Below are positions 2,906 through 43,909 of a stretch of 64,000 bases of DNA, in pieces. A program made the position numbers and the translations under genes. Below the pieces are notes generated by a model. It ran no database searches and was not told the DNA's origin. It was given only the letters and a program-made list of their open reading frames with translations. This DNA comes from Pseudomonadales bacterium (GTDB lineage: Bacteria; Pseudomonadota; Gammaproteobacteria; Pseudomonadales; Ketobacteraceae). The stretch is taken from the NCBI GenBank assembly GCA_002708905.1, contig PAPM01000037.1, positions 62,001-126,000 on the forward strand, given 5' to 3'. Numbering within the stretch: the first letter of the stretch is position 1; every line of letters begins with the position of its first letter.

Positions 2906-4735
2906 TCAATTATTCTGTAATGATTTGATGTGCGTGCGCCAGCTGCCCAGTTCCGTGATGTCTTTCGCGCCCTCAAACCCATAGCCTTCACAGATAAACC
3001 CGCTTTCCCACCGCCCATCCGCCAGCTCCACTTTGCCGATGCCCAACGGTGCGGGAATTTCTGCAACAAAACTGCCGAACTGTGCTTTGGGAACCTGCCA
3101 TACCTCCACTTCAATTGCCTTGCCGCCGGTTTCCACCCGTTGCATGCCGGGGCGGAAGGGTGGGCCACCGGCCAGGGCAAACAATTTATAGCGGGGGGCG
3201 GACTGGGTTTTCTCCAATAAGGTGGCACCCCGTTCCTGCAGTTGCCAGTTCAATGGCAAACCCTCCAGATGGGCACCGCACACCACCACATTTATGGTAT
3301 CGGGAGCTGGTCGGACAGACGCGGGTTTAGAGAGTTTGATTGAAGTGGCTCCCAGGGATAATTGTGTGGACTGCTGCAACGTGGCTGCGATGGAAAGCAG
3401 GCGTTTATCCTGGAATGCTTTGTGATAGAAAGTGATGCCAAAGCCCACACCATTAGTGTAAAAATCGGAAGGTACCGCTACGCCGCAGCAATCCAGCAGG
3501 TTCATGAAGTTGGTGTAGTAGCCCATATTGCTGTTGAGCTGGATAGGATCGTCTAACACCTCTGCCACGGTGTAGATACTGCCGTTGGTGGGGATCACCA
3601 CCGCGTCCACTTTTGCCAGCTCAAGCTGTGCCTGCTGAGCGAAGGCCTGTAGTTGGTACTGCGCGCGGAATGCATCCAGCGCTGAGGGTTTGTTGCCGGC
3701 GCTGATGATGGTGTGGATTACCGGTAACATGGATTCCGGCGAGCGCTCAATCAGTTCCTGTGTGGCAAGATAGCGCTCGGCAACCCAGGGGCCTTCATAG
3801 AGTAGGCGGGCGGCACTGGCAAAGGGTTCGAAATCGATTTCCACCAAAGTCGCGCCGAGAGTTTTCAGTTGTTCCAGGCTGCCGGCAAACAGTTGCTCTG
3901 CCTCTCTATTGTCAAAAAAATTCAGTTGGGATACAGCGGGTACACCGATGGTTAACGATGCGGTGTCGGAACTGAAATAGCGCTTGCCGTTTTCATAGGG
4001 ATTGGGGCGGGAGAACGGGTCTGCAGGATCAAACTGTGCGGCGATATCAAACACGGTGTTGCAATCGGCAACGGTTAACGCAAATACAGTAATGCAATCC
4101 AGGCTGCGACAAGCCGGTACCAGCCCGCTGGTACTGAATAACCCTTTGCTGGGCTTCAATCCCACGATATTGTTCAGTGAAGCCGGCACCCGGCCCGATC
4201 CCGCCGTGTCGGTGCCCAGGGAAAAACTCACCAGGCCTTTGGCGACGGTGACACCGGAACCGGAACTGGAACCGCCGGAGATGTACTCCGGGTTCAGAGC
4301 ATTGCGGCACGGGCCCCAGGGTTCCGGGGAGCGCACACCTACCAGACCAGTGGCGAATTGGTCCAGGTTGGTTTTGCCCAGGGGAATGGCACCGGCCTCC
4401 AGCAGCAGTTGTACGACAAACGCATTTTTATCAGGCGTATAGGTGAAATCCGGGCAGGCGGCGGTGGTCGGTACACCGGCCAGATCAATGTTGTCCTTGA
4501 TGGCGAAAGGAACGCCGTACAACGGCAGGTCGTCTGCTGATTTGCCTTGCAGTTTTTCCAGATAAGGTTCCAGCTCTTCCGGGCTCAGCAAATGAATCCA
4601 CACCGGATTGGTCTGGTTATATTCGGCGTTGGCATCCCGCAGCAGTCGAAGCATCTGTGCCGGTGTAAAATCACCATTGCGATAATGTTGCTGCAGTCCG
4701 GTGATGGTCATATCAATGGTGCTGAGATTCAACAT
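2906..4735 (-). CDS. atzF: Allophanate hydrolase (last step of guanidine/urea carboxylation pathway)
   Basis: The enzyme hydrolyses allophanate to two ammonium and CO2. The ATG at 4735 (MLNLSTIDM) is preferred over the longer reading from 4882 because AGGAG lies about 10 bases upstream and the longer frame would run deep into the carboxylase gene. That gives 609 residues, the usual AtzF/DUR1 size. The amidase-signature triad is visible: Lys80 (FAIKDN), Ser156 in the GGSSSGSG loop and nucleophile Ser180 (TDTAGSGR). The C-terminal ~140 residues form the extra domain typical of allophanate hydrolases (from 'INVVVCGAHLEG'). It is the last gene of the operon, directly behind the carboxylase, whose stop codon overlaps this gene's ribosome-binding region. 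Confidence 0.95.
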   Translation of the reverse strand: MLNLSTIDMTITGLQQHYRNGDFTPAQMLRLLRDANAEYNQTNPVWIHLLSPEELEPYLEKLQGKSADDLPLYGVPFAIKDNIDLAGVPTTAACPDFTYTPDKNAFVVQLLLEAGAIPLGKTNLDQFATGLVGVRSPEPWGPCRNALNPEYISGGSSSGSGVTVAKGLVSFSLGTDTAGSGRVPASLNNIVGLKPSKGLFSTSGLVPACRSLDCITVFALTVADCNTVFDIAAQFDPADPFSRPNPYENGKRYFSSDTASLTIGVPAVSQLNFFDNREAEQLFAGSLEQLKTLGATLVEIDFEPFASAARLLYEGPWVAERYLATQELIERSPESMLPVIHTIISAGNKPSALDAFRAQYQLQAFAQQAQLELAKVDAVVIPTNGSIYTVAEVLDDPIQLNSNMGYYTNFMNLLDCCGVAVPSDFYTNGVGFGITFYHKAFQDKRLLSIAATLQQSTQLSLGATSIKLSKPASVRPAPDTINVVVCGAHLEGLPLNWQLQERGATLLEKTQSAPRYKLFALAGGPPFRPGMQRVETGGKAIEVEVWQVPKAQFGSFVAEIPAPLGIGKVELADGRWESGFICEGYGFEGAKDITELGSWRTHIKSLQNN

Positions 4736-4749
4736 AACGGCTTTTACTC

Positions 4750-7700
4750 CTAATCCTGCTTTAAAATCAAAAGAGGTTGTCCGGCATTGACCTGCTGCCC
4801 CTGCTGTCGGTTGAGGGACACAATGGTGCCGCTCTCCGGGGCGGTAACATCGATTTCCATTTTCATGGATTCCAGGACGCACACCACATCACCGGCATTG
4901 ACCTGATCCCCTTCTTTCACCTTCCATTGCCACAGGTTGCCGGCCACGTGACTGTCAATGGCCACGCAACCTGCTTCCAGGGTTTGCTCTTCTTCGGCGA
5001 TGTCATGGCCGACGCTTTCCGAATCAAAATGGAACTGGCCGCTGTCGATCCAATGTTGCAGTTCGGTCTCAAAGGCAGCATCCCGCTGCTGCACAAACTC
5101 ATCAATGCTGGTCTGGTTGTCGGCCAGAAACTGTTGGTACTGTTTCAGACTGAATTCCGTTTTCTCAATTTTCAGCGGGTACTGGCCCCGGGGAAATTGA
5201 TGGCGGATGGTCTGCAGCTCTTCGGCACTGACTTCATAGAATTTTATCTGGTCGAAGAAACGCAGCAACCAGGGTTGCTCGAACTCCGGTGTTTTGCGAT
5301 AGCGATTCCACATTTGTAATGTGCGGCCAACAAACTGATATCCACCAGGTCCTTCCATACCATAGACGCAAAGATAAGAGCCACCGATACCCACTGAGTT
5401 TTCCGCCGTCCAGGTACGGGCCGGATTGTATTTGGTGGTCACCAGACGATGGCGGGGATCCAGTGGTGTGGCCACCGGTGCGCCCAGGTACACATCCCCC
5501 AGACCCATCACCACATAGTTGGCGTCGAAAACAATGCGTTTGACTTGCTCGATATCCGCCAGGCCGTTGATGCGACGAATAAACTCGATGTTGCTCGGGC
5601 ACCAGGGCGCGTCTTTACGCACGGACTGCATATACTTTTCAATAGCCAGGCGGCAGGCTTCATCGTCCCAACTCAGTGGAATATGCACGATGCGGGAAGG
5701 CACGGTTAAATCATCATGCCGTTGCAGTTCCCGCTCCGCCGTTTTTAAAATTTGCACCAGTTCATTTAAGGGCAGCTGCAGACTGTCGTAGTGAATCTGC
5801 AGAGAGCGGATACCTGGGGTGAGTTCCTGAATGGCGGCCAGTTTGGGATTGCTCTGCTTGTGTTCCTGCAACCAAAGCATTAGGGTGTGGGCCAGAAAGC
5901 GCAATTCGATATCCAGTTTCTGCGGGCCGTATTCCACCAACAGATATTTGTCACCGGCGGGGCGATACACCACCTGAACACCGTTGTCCGCTTCACTCAG
6001 CTCATCATAAATGGGAGTAAGATCCGCCAACGTCGCTGCTGTTGGTACGTAGGCGGAAGCCGACAGTGATGCAATCTGTTCCTGCTGCGCCAGCTCCATT
6101 TGGCGCGCGGTATCCTGAGTAACCGGAATAAACTGCAGCTTGTCACCGGCTTTCAATTGACCCAGCTTCCACAGGTCTGCTGTTACCACGGTAGCGGGGC
6201 AGACAAAACCACCCAAAGACGGACCGTCCGGCCCCAGAATCACCGGCATGTCACCGGTGAAATCCACGGTGCCGATGGCGTAAGCATTGTCGTGAATATT
6301 GGACGGGTGCATACCCGCTTCGCCGCCACTGCTACGGGCCCATTTGGGTTTGGGTCCAATCAGGCGCACACCGGTGCGGCTGGAGTTATAGTGCACCTCC
6401 CAGGTGGCGTCGAAGAATGTGGTGATGTCCTCGTCGGTGAAAAAATCCGGCGCACCATGAGGACCATAGGTCACATGCAGTTGCCATTGATTTGAAATGG
6501 CGGGCTTGATGATGTCGTTTAGTGGCTTGCTGACACCTGCGTGATCCGGTTGCAGTAAATGCAGAACATCCCCACTGCGTAATCCCCGGCCGCTGAAACC
6601 ACCAAATTGGCCCAGCGCAAACGTAGCGCGGGAACCAAGGTAATTGTTGCCATCCAATCCACCGGCAATCAATAAATAGGCACGGGCACCACTCCCTTGT
6701 ACTTTGCCCATCTTCAATACTTGTCCGGCATTCACCTCCTGTACTTGCCAATTGGGCAGAGGCTGGTCGTCCAGGGCGGCATCCAGGGCAGCACCGGTGA
6801 TGACGATGCGGGTGGGGCAATTGAACTGCAGGGTGGGGCCGTTTACGGTGATTTCCAAACCGGCGGCGTCGGCCGGATTACCCAGCATTTCATTGCCCAG
6901 GCGGAAGGAATAACTGTCAAAGGGACCGGAAGGGGGCACACCTACATCCCAATAGCCGGTGCGGCCGGGATAGTCCTGAATGGTGGTGAGGGTGCCGGGC
7001 ATGATCACATCCAGGGTACCGGGCTGATAGGCCAGGTCGTTCAGGTAGCGGGTGTGAATGCGGCCTTCTTTGAATACGTCGGTGTGCAGAATCGTCTGCA
7101 CATAATCCATATTGGTTTCGATGCCCTGGATAGTGCAGTCCTGCAATGCCTGATCCAGATCGGCAATGGCCTGCTCCCGGGTTTCCGCCCAGGTAATGAC
7201 TTTGGCCAGCATGGGATCGAAAAACGGAGAGACTTCCAGTCCGGCACTGATCCAGTGATCGATGCGCAGCTGTTTGCCGTCGGCCTCCGGTAAATCAACG
7301 GCAGATAATAAACCCGCGCTGGGCTGGAATTGTTTGTGGGGGTTCTCGGCATACACCCGGGCCTGCAGTGCATGGCCTTTGGGTTGCAGGTTGGCGCCCA
7401 GCGTTTTTAAAGGTGCTAAATCGCCTGCGGCTAATTGTACCATCCACTTAACCAGATCCACGCCGTACACTTGTTCAGTGACGCCGTGTTCCACCTGCAG
7501 GCGGGGGTTCACCTCCAGGAAATAAAATTTTGCGTCAGCCTCATCATAGATAAATTCCACGGTACCGGCATTGCGGTATTGTACTGAGGCCACCAGACGT
7601 TTGGCCACGTCGTGCAGTGTGGTGCGAACCTCATCGGATAAATTCGGGGCCGGAGTTTCTTCCAATACTTTTTGATTGCGGCGTTGCGCGGAACAATCCC

Positions 7701-8376
7701 GTTCACCCAGAGCCAGGGCATTACCGGCACCGTCACCGAACACCTGCACCTCGATATGGCGGGCATGTTGAATATATTTTTCCAGGAACACGCCATCGTT
7801 GCTGAAGTTGTTGGCGCTCAGGCGTTTGACGCTGTCGAACGCCTTTTCCAGTTGCGCGTCGCTGAAGCAGGTCTGCATACCGATACCACCACCACCGGCG
7901 GTGCTTTTCAGCATCACTGGGTAACCAATACGGTTGGCGGCGGTCAGGGCTTCCGCCAACGAGGTCAGCAAATCGGTACCGGGCAGCAGGGGCACGTCGC
8001 TCTGCTGTGCGATATCACGGGCAGTATGCTTCAGGCCGAACACCCGCATCTGGTCTGCTGTAGGGCCGATAAAGGCAATACCTTTCGCTTCGCAACGTTC
8101 AACAAACTCTGGGTTTTCGCTGAGAAAGCCGTAACCGGGGTGAACCGCGTCCACGCCTTCCTGAGCAATGATCTCGAACAATTTGTCCTGGTTCAGATAG
8201 GTTTCCCGCGCGGTGCCCACACCCAGGCTGACGGCGGTGTCGGCCTGCAGCACATGCAGGGAATCCGCATCGGCTTCGGCATACACAGCAACTGAGTGAA
8301 CACCCATCTGCTTCAGGGTGCGGATAACACGTACCGCAATGGCACCACGATTAGCGATCAGTACTTTGTTTAACAT
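4750..8376 (-). CDS. Biotin-dependent guanidine carboxylase (family name: urea carboxylase)
   Basis: The 1208-residue enzyme has the complete single-chain layout. It runs biotin carboxylase (about 1-445, with the glycine-rich ATP-grasp loop KSTAGGGGIGM and EVNPRLQVEH), carboxyltransferase halves of the KipA/AHS2 type (about 460-765) and KipI/AHS1 type (about 800-1030), and a C-terminal biotinyl domain with the ESMKM motif (biotin on Lys1172). The family is usually annotated as urea carboxylase. Members that sit behind a guanidine-I riboswitch with DUF1989 partners have been shown to prefer guanidine, making carboxyguanidine. Both hallmarks are present here, so I call guanidine as the substrate; the active-site residue that separates urea from guanidine enzymes was not identified. 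It needs biotinylation by BirA, encoded elsewhere. Confidence 0.92.
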   Translation of the reverse strand: MLNKVLIANRGAIAVRVIRTLKQMGVHSVAVYAEADADSLHVLQADTAVSLGVGTARETYLNQDKLFEIIAQEGVDAVHPGYGFLSENPEFVERCEAKGIAFIGPTADQMRVFGLKHTARDIAQQSDVPLLPGTDLLTSLAEALTAANRIGYPVMLKSTAGGGGIGMQTCFSDAQLEKAFDSVKRLSANNFSNDGVFLEKYIQHARHIEVQVFGDGAGNALALGERDCSAQRRNQKVLEETPAPNLSDEVRTTLHDVAKRLVASVQYRNAGTVEFIYDEADAKFYFLEVNPRLQVEHGVTEQVYGVDLVKWMVQLAAGDLAPLKTLGANLQPKGHALQARVYAENPHKQFQPSAGLLSAVDLPEADGKQLRIDHWISAGLEVSPFFDPMLAKVITWAETREQAIADLDQALQDCTIQGIETNMDYVQTILHTDVFKEGRIHTRYLNDLAYQPGTLDVIMPGTLTTIQDYPGRTGYWDVGVPPSGPFDSYSFRLGNEMLGNPADAAGLEITVNGPTLQFNCPTRIVITGAALDAALDDQPLPNWQVQEVNAGQVLKMGKVQGSGARAYLLIAGGLDGNNYLGSRATFALGQFGGFSGRGLRSGDVLHLLQPDHAGVSKPLNDIIKPAISNQWQLHVTYGPHGAPDFFTDEDITTFFDATWEVHYNSSRTGVRLIGPKPKWARSSGGEAGMHPSNIHDNAYAIGTVDFTGDMPVILGPDGPSLGGFVCPATVVTADLWKLGQLKAGDKLQFIPVTQDTARQMELAQQEQIASLSASAYVPTAATLADLTPIYDELSEADNGVQVVYRPAGDKYLLVEYGPQKLDIELRFLAHTLMLWLQEHKQSNPKLAAIQELTPGIRSLQIHYDSLQLPLNELVQILKTAERELQRHDDLTVPSRIVHIPLSWDDEACRLAIEKYMQSVRKDAPWCPSNIEFIRRINGLADIEQVKRIVFDANYVVMGLGDVYLGAPVATPLDPRHRLVTTKYNPARTWTAENSVGIGGSYLCVYGMEGPGGYQFVGRTLQMWNRYRKTPEFEQPWLLRFFDQIKFYEVSAEELQTIRHQFPRGQYPLKIEKTEFSLKQYQQFLADNQTSIDEFVQQRDAAFETELQHWIDSGQFHFDSESVGHDIAEEEQTLEAGCVAIDSHVAGNLWQWKVKEGDQVNAGDVVCVLESMKMEIDVTAPESGTIVSLNRQQGQQVNAGQPLLILKQD

Positions 8377-8458
8377 ATCGATTCACTTACGGGTCGTCCC
8401 GTTATTCGTTTCTGAAGCAGGTCGTCCTGTTCAGCATGATTACGTCTGGGTGAATGCG

Positions 8459-9097
8459 TCAGTTCCAGATCAGTACTTCGACGGGCGTTGGGTTGTAACC
8501 GTTACAGGGGTTGTTTAATTGCGGGCAGTTGGAAATCAACACGATCACGTCCATGGCTGTCGTCATTTCCACATATTTGCCGGGCGCAGAGATACCATCT
8601 TCAAAAGTTAATCCGCCCTGGGCGGTCACCGGTACATTCATAAAGAAATTGATGTTGTGGGTGATGTCCCGTTTGGTCAGCCCCAGCTCTTCGTGCTCGG
8701 CGACCGCCAGCATCCAGCTGTCACGGCAGGCGTGCATGCAACGCTTTTCCAGGTCATAGCGCACGGTATTGCTTTCCGTGGCACAGGCTCCCCCCAGGGT
8801 GTCGTGACGGCCACAGGTGTCCGCCACAATGGTGAGCATCTCGTTACCCAGATTGGATAATAATCTGGTGCCTGCAGTCAGGTACACGTTACCCTGTTCG
8901 CGAATAGTATCCATTGCGCTATAACGCTCCGACACATCATCAGCGTTATAAAATAAGGTATCAGCGGCCTGGTTGCCTTCCAGATCCAGAATGCGAAAGG
9001 TTTGCCCGGCCTTCACCACTTTCAGGAAATAATCGCCGGCAGGAACCACTTCACTGAAGATGGCGTCGGCGGTTTGCTTTTGACTTTCCACGATCAT
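8459..9097 (-). CDS. Carboxyguanidine deiminase subunit (DUF1989, 'urea carboxylase-associated protein')
   Basis: The 212-residue DUF1989 protein is one of a pair in this operon. In characterised guanidine pathways the two DUF1989 proteins (CgdA and CgdB) form a zinc-dependent heteromeric carboxyguanidine deiminase that converts carboxyguanidine to allophanate. This one begins '[32 protein letters not shown]'-like (first ~32 residues) and carries '[15 protein letters not shown]' and two conserved cysteines near '[12 protein letters not shown]', which may be metal ligands. The end '[17 protein letters not shown]' matches the family's usual C-terminus. It follows the other DUF1989 gene by 12 bases and precedes the carboxylase by 82 bases. 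I cannot tell which of the two is CgdA or CgdB. Confidence 0.87.
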
Positions 9098-9109
9098 GAT
9101 GCCGATCTC

Positions 9110-9826
9110 CTAGCGACAAAAATGGTAGAGACGATTGTTTTCAAAACCGCGGCGGTTTTCCGGGCGGAAGTTCATGCAGTAATCGTCCTCTGACACCGGT
9201 GCCGATTGCAGCAGTTCGCAGTGCACGGGTTTGTAGGGATAATCCGCAGCCGGGTTCAAAGGATGGGGGCAGGTATGCATGATTACCAACGCATCCATCT
9301 CAAACCGCAGGGTGATCTGGGCACCGGCTTTGGCTGCCGATGTATCCAGGCTCAGGTTACCGCTGTCGTCCACAATCACTTTGCTGAACAGGTTTAAGTT
9401 GGACGCCAGATCCTTGCCGTTCAGACCGTACTTGGCCAGCTCCACCAAAAAGCTGTCGTAACCATTCTGGTGCCATTCGTTGCGGGCAGCCTGGTAATCT
9501 TTTTCACCCCATTTTTTGGCTACCATGTCTTTGTTGGTGTTGCCACACACGGTGTCGTGCCAGCCGAAACTGTCTTCAGTGATGGAGCAGAAAATGCGGC
9601 CCATATCGGAATACAAACAATTACCCCGGGTGAGTTTAAAAGTGTGTTGGCACTTTAAGCTGTCCGGCGCGTTGTATTTTTCCAGTTTGTCTTCCGGGTT
9701 GTAGAACATCATGCCCAGGTTGGCACCCCCTTCCACATCGGTAAGGCGCAGGCTGGTGCCGCGGCGAACCCGCAGGGACCAGTGCGCCGCCGGGGGCAGG
9801 GTGTATTGATACAGTCTTTCTGTCAT
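9110..9826 (-). CDS. Carboxyguanidine deiminase subunit (second DUF1989 protein)
   Basis: The 238-residue DUF1989 protein is the larger member of the pair. It has 'SFGWHDTVCGNTNKDM' in place of the partner's '[14 protein letters not shown]', so the HDT(x)xG element is shared, and a 'MHTCPHPLNPAADYPYKPVHC' tail (21 residues from about 187) that parallels the partner's '[17 protein letters not shown]'. By comparison with characterised systems the pair deiminates carboxyguanidine to allophanate, bridging the carboxylase and AtzF. Its ATG overlaps the stop of the ABC ATPase gene by four bases (ATGA), indicating translational coupling. Older databases call these proteins urea-amidolyase-associated proteins. 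Confidence 0.87.
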   Translation of the reverse strand: MTERLYQYTLPPAAHWSLRVRRGTSLRLTDVEGGANLGMMFYNPEDKLEKYNAPDSLKCQHTFKLTRGNCLYSDMGRIFCSITEDSFGWHDTVCGNTNKDMVAKKWGEKDYQAARNEWHQNGYDSFLVELAKYGLNGKDLASNLNLFSKVIVDDSGNLSLDTSAAKAGAQITLRFEMDALVIMHTCPHPLNPAADYPYKPVHCELLQSAPVSEDDYCMNFRPENRRGFENNRLYHFCR

Positions 9827-10632
9827 GGTGTGACTCCACTCATTGCTGGTTCATCTAAGTCAGCGTCTTCCTGCTGCAGGGATTCACGGATTTTTGCACT
9901 GGCTTTCTCGTCCACGGAGCCCACCGGCATATCGTAGGTAATGCGTGCACCAAAGGCGCCGGGTGCCTGGGGATCGATACGGTCTTTATCGAATACCCAC
10001 AGGCGGGTTCCGAGATAAAACGCTTCTTTCAGATCGTGAGTGATCATGAATATGGTGAGTTTGTAGCGCCGCCACAGATCCAGTACCAGTTGGTGCATAT
10101 CGGCCCGAATACCCGGGTCCAATGCACCAAAGGGTTCATCCAGCAGCAGGATGCGGGGCTTTTTAATTAACGCCTGGGCAATGGCCAGACGCTGTTGCAT
10201 ACCACCGGACAATTCATGGGGATACTTGTTGATGGCCGGGGTTAAGCCCACTGCCTCGATCATGGTGAGCGCTTCTTCGACGGCCTGCTTTTTTGCGCTG
10301 CCGAACAGCCTGGAGAGAAAGCGACTTTTTTCAAATTCCCGTGCCAACACCACGTTCTGCAACACGGTCATATGGGGGAAAACAGAATAGCGTTGAAACA
10401 CGATGCCGCGCTGGGCATCAGGCTCAGCGTGCAACGGTTCATTGGCCACAGTAATGATGCCGCGGCTGGGTCCTTCTGTACCCAGCAGCATTTTCAGAAA
10501 GGTAGTCTTTCCGCAGCCGGAGGCACCGACAATGGTGATGAAGTCGCCTTTTTCCACCGTGTTGTTGATACGCTCCAATACCACCTGGTCCCCGTATTCT
10601 TTCCATACATTTTTAATGTTGATGTAACTCAT
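9823..10632 (-). CDS. ABC transporter ATPase of NitT/TauT type, guanidine uptake
   Basis: The 269-residue ATP-binding subunit has Walker A GASGCGKTTF, signature LSGGMQQRLAIAQAL, Walker B RILLLDEPFGALD and a switch histidine in 'MITHDLKEAFYLG'. It resembles the TauB/SsuB/NrtD group. The C-terminal ~40 residues extend past the core with an acidic stretch ('QQEDADLDEPAMSG'). It lies 2 bases after the permease gene and overlaps the next gene by four bases, so the three transport genes and the pathway genes are one transcription unit. The operon position behind a guanidine riboswitch suggests guanidine as the cargo; urea or another small amide is the alternative. Confidence 0.92.
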   Translation of the reverse strand: MSYINIKNVWKEYGDQVVLERINNTVEKGDFITIVGASGCGKTTFLKMLLGTEGPSRGIITVANEPLHAEPDAQRGIVFQRYSVFPHMTVLQNVVLAREFEKSRFLSRLFGSAKKQAVEEALTMIEAVGLTPAINKYPHELSGGMQQRLAIAQALIKKPRILLLDEPFGALDPGIRADMHQLVLDLWRRYKLTIFMITHDLKEAFYLGTRLWVFDKDRIDPQAPGAFGARITYDMPVGSVDEKASAKIRESLQQEDADLDEPAMSGVTP

Positions 10633-10634
10633 GA

Positions 10635-11462
10635 TTACGCGCCCTCCGGTGTTTGGTCATGGAACCAGGGATACAGCCACAGAGACAGCTTGCGCAGTGC
10701 AAAATCCACCGCGAAGGCCAACAAAGTAATCCACAACACATAGGGCAGGATCACGTCCATTGAAAGATAGCGACGTACCAGAAAAATTCGATAACCCAAG
10801 CCATCAGTGGAAGCGATCGCCTCGGCGGCAATCAGGAACAGCCAGGCGGCACCCAATGACAGGCGCACACTGGCAATCAAGCGCGGCATCACCTGGGGTA
10901 ACACCACCCGCACGATGATCTGCCAGGTATTGGCACCGAGGGTTTGGGCTTTGATCAGTTGTTCACTGGGAATTTCCAATACCCGTTGTTGCATATCGCG
11001 GATCAGGAACGGGGTAATGCCGATGGCAATCAACACGATCTTAGACAACTCCCCCAAACCGAAAACAATAAACAACACCGGCAGGATCGCCATGGGTGGC
11101 ACCAGCGAAATGGCGGTGATCAATGGTGACAGATTGGCCCGCACATAGGGTATGGTGCCGTTGACTACACCAAAGATCAGCGCAATCAACGCACTGACCC
11201 CCACACCAATGCCCAGGCGTTCCAGGCTGCTCACCGTATCCTGCCAGAACACATATTCCCCACTGCGTTTGCTGGGTTCAAAGGCCAGGCGATCCATGGC
11301 TTCAACAAAGCTGCCTAAAGCCGGCAGCAATTTATCGTTCGGGTTCTCCGCCAGTCGCGCGTTGGACGCGCCAATGTAGAGAATCAGTAAAATAAAAAAC
11401 GGAATAATGCCCAACAGCCATCGAAACGGTTTGGTGGGTTGTTGATTGATGAGCTTTTTCAT
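10635..11462 (-). CDS. ABC transporter permease of NitT/TauT type, guanidine uptake
   Basis: The 275-residue inner-membrane protein is of the BPD_transp_1 family. About six hydrophobic segments are visible, the first near residues 14-32. The EAA loop that docks the ATPase is present ('EQLIKAQTLGANTWQIIVRV'), followed by 'LPQVMPRLIASVRLSLGAAW', which is characteristic of the TauC/SsuC group. A periplasmic loop of about 60 residues after the first membrane segment is longer than in TauC and is typical of the permeases in riboswitch-linked carboxylase operons. It sits between the binding protein (105-bp gap containing a hairpin) and the ATPase (2-bp gap). Confidence 0.92.
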   Translation of the reverse strand: MKKLINQQPTKPFRWLLGIIPFFILLILYIGASNARLAENPNDKLLPALGSFVEAMDRLAFEPSKRSGEYVFWQDTVSSLERLGIGVGVSALIALIFGVVNGTIPYVRANLSPLITAISLVPPMAILPVLFIVFGLGELSKIVLIAIGITPFLIRDMQQRVLEIPSEQLIKAQTLGANTWQIIVRVVLPQVMPRLIASVRLSLGAAWLFLIAAEAIASTDGLGYRIFLVRRYLSMDVILPYVLWITLLAFAVDFALRKLSLWLYPWFHDQTPEGA

Positions 11463-11529
11463 TTGGAACCCCAGCGTACAGTGAATGGTGCGTTGGTGGT
11501 TAAGCGTTTGGTCTTAATGTTGGAATAGC

Positions 11530-11549
11530 GGGGTGCCTTGCGACACCCC
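11530..11549 (-). terminator. Intercistronic hairpin between binding-protein and permease genes
   Basis: Six-base GC arms (GGGGTG/CACCCC) with an 8-base loop begin 19 bases after the stop of the binding-protein gene. There is no T-run, so it is more likely an mRNA 3'-end stabiliser or partial terminator than a full stop. Such hairpins commonly raise binding-protein levels above those of the membrane components. Confidence 0.5.
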
Positions 11550-11567
11550 TTAGCGATACCAATGGCG

Positions 11568-12623
11568 TTACAGCTTGCCGTCTGCTGCCATCTTCATGAA
11601 CGACGGATCAAAGCGCAGTTTGATATTGCCTTTGTCTCCGTAAACACCGGCAGGGGTTTCAATGCCGATGAAGCCAGCGTCAGCCGCACCTTCGCCCAAC
11701 AGTCCGTGGTCGAACGAGAATTCCGCCACGTATTGCATGGTGGTTTTCAATTGAGCGCTGGTGGTGAAGGTCACTGCGTCTGCAGGGGTATAAAACATTT
11801 TGGTGGAAGCCAGTTGCGCATCGTAGCCCGCCAGATCGGTACCGGAGGCTTTGCCCATGAATTCCCGGGCGGCTTTACCGGCATCGCTGTCGGCACTCAT
11901 GGTGCTCATGATTTCATACCAGGCGCCCACCAAGGCTTTACCGAATTTGGGGTTGGCTTGCAACGTTTCGGTATTCACTACCATCAGGTCGATGATTTCG
12001 CCGGGAATTTGTGAGGAATCGAATACCTTGGTGCTCTTCGGCATGCCGGTGATTTCGCTCAGCAGCGGATTCCAGGTTACCACCGCAGTAACGTCATCCG
12101 TGGTGTAAGCCGCGACCATGTCGGCGTCGGAGGTGTTCACCACTTTCACATCTTTCTCGGTCATACCAACGGATTCCAGACCCCGTGCCAACAGGTAGTG
12201 GGACACGCTCAGTTCCACCAGGTTAACGGTTTGGCCTTTAATATCTTTCAGCGCGCTTTTGCCTTTCAGCACCACGCCGTCATTACCGTTAGAGAAGTCA
12301 CCCACCACCAGGGCAGTGGAATCCACGCCGCCGGCGGCAGGAATAGTGAGGGCATCCATATTGGTCATGGTGCAGCCGTCGTACTGGCCAGCCGTGTACT
12401 GGTTGATGGATTCCACATAGTCATTGATTTGAACCACTTCAATATCAATGCCGTATTTATCGGCCCACTTTTTTACAATGCCTTTTTGAGCACCGTAATC
12501 CCAGGGCATCCAGCCCACATAAATGGACCAGCAAACTTTGAAGGAATCTTTTGCGTTAGCGAGGGGAGCAAAGCTGAGTAGAGCAACAAGTACACAAAGT
12601 GCAGTGGTGACACGCTTGGTCAT
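11568..12623 (-). CDS. Periplasmic substrate-binding protein of NitT/TauT ABC importer, guanidine uptake
   Basis: The 351-residue protein begins with a clear Sec signal peptide (MTKR, hydrophobic run, cleavage after about Ala24 'ANA'). The mature part matches the NMT1/TauA-like binding proteins found in carboxylase operons ('VCWSIYVGWMPWDYGAQKG' near the start, 'GQYDGCTMTNMDAL' near residue 80). It is the first gene of the operon, has a strong AGGAGG Shine-Dalgarno six bases before its ATG, and lies directly under control of the guanidine-I riboswitch. Guanidine as ligand is an inference from that position; the family has so far usually been labelled 'putative urea transporter'. Confidence 0.9.
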   Translation of the reverse strand: MTKRVTTALCVLVALLSFAPLANAKDSFKVCWSIYVGWMPWDYGAQKGIVKKWADKYGIDIEVVQINDYVESINQYTAGQYDGCTMTNMDALTIPAAGGVDSTALVVGDFSNGNDGVVLKGKSALKDIKGQTVNLVELSVSHYLLARGLESVGMTEKDVKVVNTSDADMVAAYTTDDVTAVVTWNPLLSEITGMPKSTKVFDSSQIPGEIIDLMVVNTETLQANPKFGKALVGAWYEIMSTMSADSDAGKAAREFMGKASGTDLAGYDAQLASTKMFYTPADAVTFTTSAQLKTTMQYVAEFSFDHGLLGEGAADAGFIGIETPAGVYGDKGNIKLRFDPSFMKMAADGKL

Positions 12624-12629
12624 GGTTAA

Positions 12630-12720
12630 CCTCCTGAGGGTTACACGTTTTTATTACAGAGGAGTCAATGGCATCTTGGCCATTTTGCCTCCCGGGCTTT
12701 TGTCCCGCCGTGTAACCCCA
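12630..12720 (-). promoter_or_regulatory. Probable riboswitch expression platform with 10-bp alternative pairing beside the SD
   Basis: On the minus strand GGGTTACACG (12718-12709), at the start of the aptamer's 3' part, is perfectly complementary to CGTGTAACCC (12647-12638), which ends two bases before the AGGAGG Shine-Dalgarno (12635-12630). A small local hairpin (AATGGC/GCCATT) lies between them. Pairing of the two arms would compete with folding of the aptamer 3' part, so ligand binding could free the leader. No run of Ts follows, which favours translational over intrinsic-terminator control, but this is inference. Confidence 0.6.
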
Positions 12721-12832
12721 AGCGGCTATCCAGGCAAATAAGCCGAATAATGCGAGAGGTCGACAGCTCTCGGACCAGTCACCAGATCGCATAGTTGCAA
12801 CGAAATCTGATCGGAACCCTAGCTGTCCATTG
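12680..12832 (-). promoter_or_regulatory. Guanidine-I riboswitch (ykkC class, subtype 1)
   Basis: The reverse strand shows the hallmark blocks of the ykkC aptamer in order: CTAGGGTTCCG (around 12822-12811), CTGGTCCGAGAG (around 12777-12763), then ACGGCGGGACAAAAGCCCGG and GAGG (12711-12688). A 7-bp P1-like stem closes the first two blocks: GACAGCT at about 12830-12824 pairs with AGCTGTC just after CCGAG. The class binds guanidinium and normally turns expression on. It lies 57-210 bases upstream of the first gene of the operon and identifies the whole unit as guanidine-responsive. Confidence 0.95.
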
Positions 12833-12844
12833 ATGTAGCGCCAG

Positions 12845-12873
12845 ATTGTAGTCAGAGCCAACAGCAAGATCAA
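12845..12873 (-). promoter_or_regulatory. Candidate sigma-70 promoter for the guanidine operon
   Basis: On the minus strand TTGATC (12873-12868) and TACAAT (12850-12845) are separated by exactly 17 bases. Transcription would start near 12838, only a few bases before the P1 stem of the riboswitch, which is where a promoter for a riboswitch-led transcript is expected. Confidence 0.6.
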
Positions 12874-12911
12874 GCTGCCATTGATTCCTCTGAAATGGTC
12901 AAATAGTGAAT

Positions 12912-12927
12912 AGCAAGGCCTGTGCCA
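12912..12927 (-). promoter_or_regulatory. Candidate sigma-54 (RpoN) promoter for the guanidine operon
   Basis: The minus strand reads TGGCACAGGCCTTGCT, which fits the -24/-12 consensus TGGCACG-N4-TTGCW at all fixed positions except one (A for G at position 7). The start would be near 12900, about 70 bases before the aptamer. Three GGTGC elements at 12991-12995, 13002-13006 and 13032-13036 lie 65-125 bases upstream and resemble NtrC half-sites, though no full palindrome was found. Nitrogen-limitation control would suit a nitrogen-acquisition operon. Confidence 0.6.
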
Positions 12928-14024: not shown

Positions 14025-14573
14025 ATGGGAAGTACGGTGTTTTTAGATTTAGTTCGGTTACAGGATAAAGATTGGCCGCAAATTGAAGATCCAGATAAGT
14101 ATACGTCTGTTAGAGTATGGTTCTGTAAGTACCGAACTTTGGATGCGATTTCCTACTTCCAAAATCTAAAAAACTTGGTGATCGCTGGTTTTCCGGACCC
14201 ATCGCTTGTTGCGATATCTCGATTAACTGAGCTTGAGTATCTTAGAATTCTTCATTTGCCAAAGATTACTAGTCTTGCAGGAATAGAAAAACTAAAGAAT
14301 CTTGAAAGCTTGTCTTTGTCTACTGCGCCAAGCTGGGATTCGTCAGGGAAAAGGACTGAGGTGGATTCTCTAGCCCCAGTTGGAACGCTAGAAAAGCTAA
14401 AACACATTGAGCTTTTTGGAGTTTGTCAAACTGGTAGCTCTTTGTCTGAGCTGGAGTCATGCTCGTCGTTGGTAACAGGAAGGTTCAACAAATACCCAAA
14501 AGGTGTAGCTGAGCAGTTTATCGAGAAAATGGGTCTTAAAAACCAATTTGTTCCCGAGCCCGTGCTGGAATAG
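14025..14573 (+). CDS. Hypothetical cytoplasmic leucine-rich-repeat-like protein
   Basis: The 182-residue protein has no signal peptide. The centre (about residues 50-135) shows irregular leucine-rich repeats: 'FQNLKNLVIAGF', 'LTELEYLRILHLPKITSLAGI' (21 residues from about 67), 'LKNLESLSLSTAP', 'LEKLKHIELFGV'. Short LRR proteins of this kind in accessory islets are sometimes immunity or protein-binding proteins, but nothing here proves a role. The gene is AT-richer than its neighbours and starts at an ATG only about 20 bases after a TTGTTATAAC sequence. It is the first of three same-strand orphan genes. Confidence 0.6.
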   Translation: MGSTVFLDLVRLQDKDWPQIEDPDKYTSVRVWFCKYRTLDAISYFQNLKNLVIAGFPDPSLVAISRLTELEYLRILHLPKITSLAGIEKLKNLESLSLSTAPSWDSSGKRTEVDSLAPVGTLEKLKHIELFGVCQTGSSLSELESCSSLVTGRFNKYPKGVAEQFIEKMGLKNQFVPEPVLE

Positions 14574-40975: not shown

Positions 40976-43909
40976 ATGAATGTGTTCTCTGCGGAACGAT
41001 TCCCTGACTCGGTTAAATCTTCCGTTCAGCAAAATCTTGATCGTGTGCACTCGGCGCTGCAGGATGCTGAGCTGGTTGATGTTGTGGTCCAGTGGGATGT
41101 CTCCCTGCAACATGAACTGCAGGACTGTGTGCTCGCCAGCGATTATGTGGCTGACCAATTCAATCGGCACCCGCAGCTACTGCTTGAGTTGGTAGCGAGC
41201 GGTGATCTCCATCGAACCTATGGGCCCGGGGAATTCAAAGCGAATCTACAACGGATATTGCAGAGCGCAGAAGACGAGGCGGCACTGTCCAGGTGCCTGC
41301 GTCAGGCGCGTCGTCGTGAGATGGTGCGCATTATCTGGCGGGACACCACCGGTTTAGCTCAGTACCCGGAAACGGTATCCGATCTCAGTCGCTTGGCGGA
41401 TGCCTGCATCGATTGCGCGCTGGAAAAACTCTACGCCTGGATGGAGCCTCAATTCGGTTTGCCTTATTACGATGACCGTAACGAGGCCATGCCTACCCCC
41501 ATGCCCATGGTGGTGTTGGGGATGGGAAAGTTGGGGGCCGGCGAATTGAACCTGTCGTCGGACATCGACCTGATGTTCGCCTATGCCCATGAGGGTGAAA
41601 CCCGGGGCGGGCGTAAAGAGCTGGCCAACCGGGATTTCTTTACCCGGCTGGGGCAGAAGCTGATTAAGGCGCTGGATGAAAATACCGTGGACGGTTTTGT
41701 CTTTCGGGTGGACATGCGGTTGCGCCCCTATGGCAGCAGCGGCGCGCTGGCCTTGAACTTTCGGGCCATGGAAAGTTATTACGAAGAACAGGGGCGGGAG
41801 TGGGAACGCTACGCCATGATCAAGGCGCGGGCTATTGGCAGCGACAATGGCGATGGCGAGGAATTGCTGCGCCGCCTGAAGCCCTTTGTGTATCGGCGCT
41901 ATGTGGATTTTGGTGTGATTGAATCCCTGCGTGAGCTCAAAAAAATGATCAACCAGGAAGTCCTGCGCAAAGGTAATGAAGACAACGTAAAGACCGGTGC
42001 CGGCGGGATTCGTGAGGTGGAATTCATCGCCCAGGTGTTCCAGTTGATTCGGGGTGGTCAGGATGTGGAATTGCAGCAGCGCAATCTGTTGCAGGTCATG
42101 GGCATCATCCGCGATCTTGGTCTGTTACCGGGGGACATTGTTGATGAGCTGTGTTCCGACTATGTATTCCTGCGTAATGTGGAACACCGTATTCAGGCGT
42201 TGCAGGATCGTCAGACCCAGCTGCTGCCAACCGATCCCAACCTGCGGGCGCGGATTGCCCTGGGGCTGGGCTACCCGGATTGGGAAACGTTTTATGCGGA
42301 ATTAGGAGCGGCCCGCCAACGGGTGCGCAGCCATTTCGATGCCCTGATTGCGGCCCCGCAGGAACAGGAGGAAGTGGCGGTGTTGGATCAGGCGATCGCG
42401 CTCTGGTTAACCGAACCTTCCCGGGAGGATGCAGAACAGGATCTCGGGCAACTCGGATTCCAGCAGCCCGCAGAGGCCTGGCATCTTCTGCATGAGTTTA
42501 AAACCAGTCGTCAGGTTACCCATTTGCAGGCGGTGGGTCGTGAGCGCCTGGACAAACTTATGCCTCTGCTGATCAATGCCTGCTCCCAGCAAGCCGACCC
42601 CGGGCTGACCCTGCAGCGGGTGCTGGGATTGGTGGAGTCCATTCTGCGCCGTTCGGCCTATATTGCCCTGCTGGTGGAAAACCCGAATTCCCTGGAGCGC
42701 CTGGCCATGTTGTTTGCCGCCAGCCCCTGGGTGGCGGAAAGTATTGCCCGTTATCCCATGCTGTTGGATACCCTGCTGAATGAAGCCACGCTGCTTTCCC
42801 CGTTGGGGGTGGACACGTTGCAGAGTGAATTGCGCCAGGTGCTGCTGCGCATTCCGGAGGATGATCTGGAGCGCCAAATGGATGCCCTGCGCCAGTTCAA
42901 ACACAGCCATGTACTGCGGGTGGCGGCCTCCGAGATAGCAGGCACGCTACCCTTGATGAAAGTAAGTGATTACTTAACATGGTTGGCCGAAACTCTGCTG
43001 CAGTCAGTGCTGGATCTGTCCTGGCGTCAGATGGAGGCAAAATACGGGCGCCCCCTGCGGGCGGATGGTTCCCCTTGCGAGCAGGATTTCATTATCGTGG
43101 GCTACGGCAAAGTGGGGGGCATTGAGCTGAGCTACAGCTCCGACCTGGACCTGGTGTTCATTCATGACGCGGACCCCGCCAGCGCCACTGACGGCGAAAA
43201 GAGCATCGACAACAGCGTGTTCTTCGCCCGGCTGGGGCAGCGCATCATTCATATTCTCACCAGCAAAATGGCTTCCGGGGCGCTGTATGAGACCGATATG
43301 CGGTTGCGCCCCTCCGGCAATTCAGGGCTGCTTGTAAGTACCCTGAAAGCCTTCCGGGATTATCAGCAGGAGAAGGCCTGGAACTGGGAGCATCAGGCCC
43401 TGGTGCGGGCCCGGGTGGTGGCGGGCTGTCCGCACCTGGCTGAGCGTTTCAATCAGGTGCGGGATGATATTCTCTCCCGGCCCCGGGATGAAGCCAGACT
43501 CAGGCAGGAAGTGATTGAAATGCGCGAGAAAATGCTGGGCCACCTGAGTACCTACAAGGAGCTGGAGCTTAGGCAGGAACGGCTGACACCGGAGAGTACC
43601 TTTGATCTGAAACAGGATCCCGGTGGTATCGTCGATATTGAGTTCCTCGCGCAGTACCTGGTACTGCGCTGGTCGGCGGACAAGCCTGCCATGACCCGCT
43701 GGACCGACAATATGCGGATTTTGGACAGCGCTTTGGAGCAGGGGCTGCTTGGCGCTGATGATGTGGCTTCCCTGCAGAATGCTTACTTGAGTTACCGCAG
43801 CCAGACCCATGCCCTGGCGCTGCAGAACGGGGGGACCAAGATCAGTGGTGACCGGTTCGTGAATGAGCGCAGGCAGGTGCGTGAAATCTGGCGAAAAACC
43901 TTTGCTTAA
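40976..43909 (+). CDS. glnE: Bifunctional glutamine synthetase adenylyltransferase/deadenylase
   Basis: The 977-residue protein controls glutamine synthetase by adding or removing AMP in response to PII and glutamine. Both nucleotidyltransferase domains are visible. The N-terminal deadenylase has 'GMGKLGAGELNLSSDIDLMF' (about 178-197) and the C-terminal adenylyltransferase has 'GYGKVGGIELSYSSDLDLVF' (about 708-727). The intervening and C-terminal helical PII-binding domains are present and length is normal. The next gene is ilvE, the same order as in Pseudomonas. A small purine-rich stretch (AAGGACTTGAG) precedes the ATG. Confidence 0.97.
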   Translation: MNVFSAERFPDSVKSSVQQNLDRVHSALQDAELVDVVVQWDVSLQHELQDCVLASDYVADQFNRHPQLLLELVASGDLHRTYGPGEFKANLQRILQSAEDEAALSRCLRQARRREMVRIIWRDTTGLAQYPETVSDLSRLADACIDCALEKLYAWMEPQFGLPYYDDRNEAMPTPMPMVVLGMGKLGAGELNLSSDIDLMFAYAHEGETRGGRKELANRDFFTRLGQKLIKALDENTVDGFVFRVDMRLRPYGSSGALALNFRAMESYYEEQGREWERYAMIKARAIGSDNGDGEELLRRLKPFVYRRYVDFGVIESLRELKKMINQEVLRKGNEDNVKTGAGGIREVEFIAQVFQLIRGGQDVELQQRNLLQVMGIIRDLGLLPGDIVDELCSDYVFLRNVEHRIQALQDRQTQLLPTDPNLRARIALGLGYPDWETFYAELGAARQRVRSHFDALIAAPQEQEEVAVLDQAIALWLTEPSREDAEQDLGQLGFQQPAEAWHLLHEFKTSRQVTHLQAVGRERLDKLMPLLINACSQQADPGLTLQRVLGLVESILRRSAYIALLVENPNSLERLAMLFAASPWVAESIARYPMLLDTLLNEATLLSPLGVDTLQSELRQVLLRIPEDDLERQMDALRQFKHSHVLRVAASEIAGTLPLMKVSDYLTWLAETLLQSVLDLSWRQMEAKYGRPLRADGSPCEQDFIIVGYGKVGGIELSYSSDLDLVFIHDADPASATDGEKSIDNSVFFARLGQRIIHILTSKMASGALYETDMRLRPSGNSGLLVSTLKAFRDYQQEKAWNWEHQALVRARVVAGCPHLAERFNQVRDDILSRPRDEARLRQEVIEMREKMLGHLSTYKELELRQERLTPESTFDLKQDPGGIVDIEFLAQYLVLRWSADKPAMTRWTDNMRILDSALEQGLLGADDVASLQNAYLSYRSQTHALALQNGGTKISGDRFVNERRQVREIWRKTFA

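Follow-up and report, generated by a model that had tools for sequence, protein, structure and literature searches.

Does an operon that standard annotation labels as urea carboxylase serve to assimilate guanidine, and what would decide when it is expressed? The question is raised by a locus in a Pseudomonadales bacterium of the Ketobacteraceae (GCA_002708905.1), of which we analyzed 64,000 nt, positions 62,001-126,000 of contig PAPM01000037.1 (the window). Seven collinear minus-strand genes lie there downstream of a Guanidine-I aptamer, the last one ending at 2906. It is very probable that they form a guanidine-assimilation operon whose expression is gated three times, by sigma-54, by Guanidine-I, and by a Guanidine-II riboswitch. 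Gene content and order, the aptamers (by model and by covariation), the partition of carboxylases at residue 705, and the sigma-54 element with its enrichment were all computed here. The features are as follows, in the order of transcription.

12912-12927, minus strand: candidate promoter, sigma-54 (-24/-12) element TGGCACAGGCCTTGCT, matching 11 of 12 consensus positions, with the GG-N10-GC core
12687-12833, minus strand: Guanidine-I (ykkC) aptamer, RF00442, 78.6 bits (gathering cut-off 63)
12624-12686, minus strand: Guanidine-I expression platform, a hairpin followed by CGUGUAACCCU and then the Shine-Dalgarno sequence AGGAGG, with no U-run
11568-12623, minus strand: substrate-binding protein of an ABC importer, NitT/TauT-like, TIGR03427, 586.7 bits (cut-off 333.9)
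10635-11462, minus strand: permease of the ABC importer (BPD_transp_1), from profile searches
9823-10632, minus strand: ATPase of the ABC importer, from profile searches
9110-9826, minus strand: UAAP1/DUF1989, probable carboxyguanidine hydrolase subunit, TIGR03425, 336.6 bits (cut-off 205.95)
8459-9097, minus strand: UAAP2/DUF1989, probable carboxyguanidine hydrolase subunit, TIGR03424, 341.7 bits (cut-off 284.7)
8389-8433, minus strand: Guanidine-II (mini-ykkC) element, two ACGA-loop hairpins, RF01068, 32.5 bits (cut-off 32)
4750-8376, minus strand: predicted guanidine carboxylase, biotin-dependent (annotated urea carboxylase), TIGR02712, 1846 bits (cut-off 1303.85)
2906-4735, minus strand: allophanate hydrolase AtzF with C-terminal domain AH_C (PF21986), TIGR02713, 792.9 bits (cut-off 511.05)

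The coordinates and family matches bear out the first-pass annotation in its claim of seven collinear genes behind an aptamer; the importer that it named is present and makes up three of the seven genes. The intergenic gaps are, in order, 105, 2, -4, 12, 82, and 14 nt. The carboxylase, which has its biotin motif ESMKM at residue 1169, the two DUF1989 subunits, and the allophanate hydrolase all score above the cut-offs of their families, with the functions of UAAP1 and UAAP2 assigned by family from the literature. The AtzF profile scores were obtained on the frame 2906-4741, and the start of this gene is most likely the ATG at 4735, which is preceded by TTAGGAGT. The claim that standard annotation would call every gene urea-related was too strong: four of the seven do receive a urea name at an NCBIfam cut-off, but the amidase is named allophanate hydrolase, and the permease and ATPase fall below every NCBIfam cut-off, with no urea name among the best 25 families listed. 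The first-pass annotation also overlooked both the Guanidine-II riboswitch (8433-8389) and the sigma-54 element (12927-12912). Elsewhere in the window, a glnE-type glutamine synthetase adenylyltransferase is encoded at 40976-43909 on the plus strand, and a small leucine-rich-repeat-like protein with weak family matches only is encoded upstream of the operon (14025-14573, plus strand).

The residue at position 705 of the carboxylase suggests which substrate the enzyme would use. According to a review, Asp marks guanidine carboxylases and Asn marks urea carboxylases (PMC12186494). An active-site comparison, proposed with the first-pass annotation, places Asp705 of the window protein opposite Asn1330 of the yeast urea amidolyase 5i8i and so makes it guanidine-type by this rule; the number 1330 is read off the 5i8i alignment, not from any paper, and was sought but not found in PMC5770610. 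Among 61 rows, 48 have Asp and UAAP genes, nine have Asn without UAAP genes, three have Asp without them, and one has Asn with them (L054, which lacks the 705 column, was dropped from these counts, as were L196 and L208, which have no carboxylase match above 600 bits). Of the three Asp rows that lack UAAP genes, L049 and L214 are truncated by a contig end, and L186 shows no such genes within its stretch. The nine Asn rows without UAAP genes group as a single clade in the tree (support 100), and the tenth Asn row, L046, falls elsewhere. In each of the six genomes with both kinds of copy, UAAP genes and a linked Guanidine-I element accompany the Asp copy, whereas the Asn copy lacks UAAP genes and any linked switch. 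The window genome contains a single carboxylase of this kind. It also has a urease elsewhere, which would make a urea role for the operon redundant.

Within a single genus, L046 (the same as L222; titled Hyphomicrobium sp.), L225, and L226 have Asn at the 705 site despite adjacent UAAP genes, and L046 carries both guanidine riboswitches. These loci nest, with support of 100, among 14 Asp-bearing congeners, an independent Asp-to-Asn change. The one-residue rule thus has exceptions.

A covariance-model search, the check proposed for the ykkC/guanidine-I aptamer of the first-pass annotation, confirmed this element with a strong match that is full length (RF00442 positions 1-107; E 2.6e-12 for 64 kb). 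It was the only Guanidine-I element found in the 5.4-Mb genome, where scoring covered 150 of 238 first-look candidates, and no other riboswitch family appeared at 12600-12900 in a scan up to E 10. Two Guanidine-I elements surround the operon in L197 and L210 (genomes G073 and G105), the first ahead of the UAAP genes and carboxylase, the second ahead of permease and ATPase genes further downstream.

Just 5' of the Shine-Dalgarno sequence, CGUGUAACCCU can pair over 11 nt with an aptamer stretch containing the conserved core GGUUACACG. This pairing was matched by none of 100 shuffles and is used in the minimum-energy fold of the window leader. All eight family members have a run of 9 to 13 pairs at this place, once via a G-U pair, a result reached by 0 to 4 of 100 shuffles; outside the family, such pairing occurs in some leaders and is missing from most. 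When the aptamer core was blocked in the model (n = 8), the free fraction of the Shine-Dalgarno sequence rose clearly in three members (G002, G003, and G004), fell in G001, and changed by no more than 0.04 in four, the window included. An intrinsic-terminator platform was considered and rejected, as a scan of 12687-12623 found none and no T-run. A U-run is present 3' of the platform hairpin in the congener G003, so a terminator may once have existed in the lineage. Given that the window leader has no terminator-like U-run, Guanidine-I most likely acts here through ribosome access; because blocking of the core brought no consistent gain in access to the Shine-Dalgarno sequence, this translational control is inferred.

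The second riboswitch ends 12 nt ahead of the carboxylase ATG, and no good Shine-Dalgarno sequence is apparent between the two. Its score is only just above the cut-off, and its two ACGA loops fit the ACGR pattern. No other Guanidine-II element was found in the 5.4-Mb genome (150 of 375 first-look candidates scored). When six genus sequences were aligned, 96.4% of stem cells were paired, with double changes at 3 of 14 pairs. The covariation score was reached by 0 of 500 shuffles and the count of double-change pairs by 29 of 500; further pair types lend no support to the element, since their number is reached by 483 of 500 shuffles. The congener G004 has a broken P1 pair, and the search reported no Guanidine-II there. 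The element precedes UAAP1, not the carboxylase, in L187, L200, L208, and L046; the first three of these have a distant set of transporter genes (about 30% identity), and L046 has the usual set. In L185, the element is found between UAAP1 and a distant ATPase gene.

One set of 115 genomes, which includes that of the window, was searched for the carboxylase, RF01068, and RF00442. A linked Guanidine-I element accompanies 31 of the 35 Asp-type carboxylase loci found. Guanidine-II lies within 110 nt of the carboxylase in 20 of the 35, with scores under the curated cut-off in two of these (G003 and G087); in three more it occupies a position farther upstream in the operon. Guanidine-I and a carboxylase-adjacent Guanidine-II occur together in 17 of the 35. 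A scan of named genome contigs gave 80 loci, diluted by other biotin carboxylases; the first 19 (L039-L057) were taken as relatives from the table of matches and checked by tblastn, and the remaining 61 were left out, so this sample may miss some relatives (e.g. L068). The riboswitch scan covered 17 of the 19 (all but L049 and L054) and found Guanidine-I in 12 and both switches in six.

Upstream of both riboswitches lies a candidate promoter of the sigma-54 type, whose consensus, as used for scoring, has a GG-N10-GC core (TGGCAC / TTGC). The element TGGCACAGGCCTTGCT is ∼80 nt upstream of the Guanidine-I aptamer, predicts a transcription start near 12901, and is the sole site with at least 11 of 12 matches on either strand within the 64 kb. 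Sites with at least 10 of 12 matches precede 33 of 45 Guanidine-I leaders, within 150 nt, compared with 94 of 13,524 tiled windows from the same loci; these 45 leaders, found by a sequence pattern and not by Infernal, are related to one another and are not independent. The remaining 12 leaders lack the element. Three leaders that the pattern missed were looked at separately, and all have a site, with 10 matches in L046 and 11 in L055 (both alphaproteobacterial) and 11 in L057 (betaproteobacterial). The element is also present in all eight family genomes in which the operon was found. In the controls, no site was found in the 200 nt upstream of the carboxylase (0 of 50) or ahead of stand-alone Guanidine-II elements (0 of 7). 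The latter set was drawn from the 14 Guanidine-II matches that lie apart from a listed carboxylase: two of these share a contig with further genes of a split operon, and the control comprises seven of the other 12. A sigma-70-like site at 12873-12845 was set aside, as such sites are no commoner than in shuffles (7 versus 7.6). In urea-type clusters, in which the allophanate hydrolase comes before the carboxylase (L213, L215-L221, and L050), a sigma-54-like site was present in nine of nine when a wider span, 400 nt upstream of the hydrolase, was searched.

In 16 of the 33 leaders with a sigma-54 site, an NtrC-like palindrome with at least 10 of 12 matches is found a further 20-130 nt upstream, compared with 236 of 18,468 in the background. 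The corresponding site in the window, with 9 of 12 matches, is weak: 45.5% of shuffles do as well. The genome contains rpoN. None of its proteins reaches the NtrC equivalog cut-off (best 424 versus 558.6 bits). Given the weak site and this negative result, NtrC is no more than a probable candidate for the activator. Neither NtrC nor rpoN nor any sigma factor is named as a regulator in the main texts of PMC12508155 and PMC12186494. We found no description of guanidine operons under sigma-54 control in the literature searched, a scope that does not take in a 2021 study of guanidine-using isolates, and a full-text search combining guanidine riboswitch and NtrC matched only articles on c-di-GMP. 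The sigma-54 layer over a guanidine operon is thus apparently unreported.

Other explanations of the locus have to be weighed against guanidine assimilation. The operon could be a urea amidolyase operon, as annotated, with a carboxylase and importer that act on urea and riboswitches that are incidental. The NCBIfam names (urea carboxylase, urea amidolyase associated proteins, and putative urea transporter substrate-binding protein) say as much, and all 15 listed of 269 plasmid records that carry a relative are annotated as uca, urea carboxylase. This reading would have to accommodate two unrelated guanidine riboswitch classes within one operon, Asp rather than Asn at position 705 when the Asn copies without UAAP genes form a clade of their own, and a genome that already has urease, and we regard it as very unlikely. 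The Guanidine-II match, which clears its cut-off by half a bit, might instead be a chance pair of hairpins; this is extremely unlikely, considering that the pair is unique in the 64 kb by pattern search, that the six genus sequences have double changes at three pairs, and that the element recurs at the same place in 20 of 35 loci.

If guanidine is a ligand, the pathway might still serve a wider range of guanidino compounds, such as methylguanidine, with guanidine one among them. In Vreelandella boliviensis, both guanidine and methylguanidine bind to the Guanidine-II element, and the operon contains mgdH and mgdL between carboxylase and atzF (PMC12508155), but at the window locus the 14-nt gap between carboxylase and AtzF leaves no room for them in that position, and we consider the proposal unlikely. 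Detoxification of guanidine, as opposed to feeding on it, would fit the many guanidine riboswitches that control exporters (PMC12186494) and an Alcanivorax Guanidine-I leader before a urea-type transporter gene that has been read as export (PMC9788540). The operon has an importer with a binding protein and a nitrogen-type sigma-54 promoter element, and none of its seven genes encodes an exporter; detoxification is hardly credible here.

The best reading is that of a nitrogen-scavenging operon that would require both nitrogen shortage and guanidine, with guanidine sensed twice. Under nitrogen shortage, sigma-54 RNA polymerase, with NtrC as its probable activator, would start near 12901. Binding of guanidine to the Guanidine-I leader would then permit expression of the importer and hydrolase genes, and its binding to the internal Guanidine-II element would permit translation of the carboxylase and probably of AtzF. 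Guanidine brought in by the ABC importer would be converted to carboxyguanidine by the biotin carboxylase, with consumption of ATP; the two DUF1989 proteins would yield allophanate and ammonium, and AtzF would release CO2 and ammonium from allophanate. The route from guanidine via carboxyguanidine to allophanate and ammonium, as proposed in the first-pass annotation, gains support from the Guanidine-I match, Guanidine-II, Asp705, and the separate urease; like the direction of both switches and the role of NtrC, it is predicted from sequence. It also seems likely, though we hold this less firmly, that guanidine operons in the bacterial order to which the window belongs, and in named gamma-, beta-, and alphaproteobacteria, belong to a sigma-54/NtrC nitrogen-starvation regulon, each transcript passing three serial gates. 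This analysis corrects a widespread urea label and yields a prediction that we did not find in the literature searched: guanidine would be used subject to nitrogen status. It bears on the circumstances in which free guanidine is important to bacteria and on the reason for stacking two guanidine sensors in one operon.

Operons of this kind are already known, and what appears to be new is the predicted sigma-54 layer. The guanidine carboxylase pathway and its mis-annotation as urea-related have been published (PMC12186494, PMC12508155), so the guanidine substrate is no new discovery. The two-switch layout is also in print, for Vreelandella boliviensis (PMC12508155) and for enterobacterial isolates (PMC12186494). 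As described for the V. boliviensis gca operon, Guanidine-I comes first and Guanidine-II precedes gca, and an ABC importer, cgdA/B, and atzF are present, as in the window, but mgdH and mgdL lie between gca and atzF, where the window has its 14-nt gap; this organism grows on guanidine as sole nitrogen source (PMC12508155). In the enterobacterial isolates, as in the window, Guanidine-I heads the importer and carboxyguanidine deaminase genes and Guanidine-II heads the carboxylase and allophanate hydrolase. These are other bacteria, and they use guanidine as sole nitrogen source (PMC12186494). The urea amidolyase KlUA (3va7/5i8i) is homologous to the window carboxylase over residues 4-1203 but has Asn in place of Asp705, and 9 of 10 bacterial Asn copies, unlike the window, have no adjacent DUF1989 gene. 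Nitrogen-scavenging operons under NtrC and sigma-54 are a known class. The window resembles them in its canonical -24/-12 element, as do about half of the related loci in having an NtrC-like site upstream, and differs from them in that its transcript would traverse two guanidine riboswitches.
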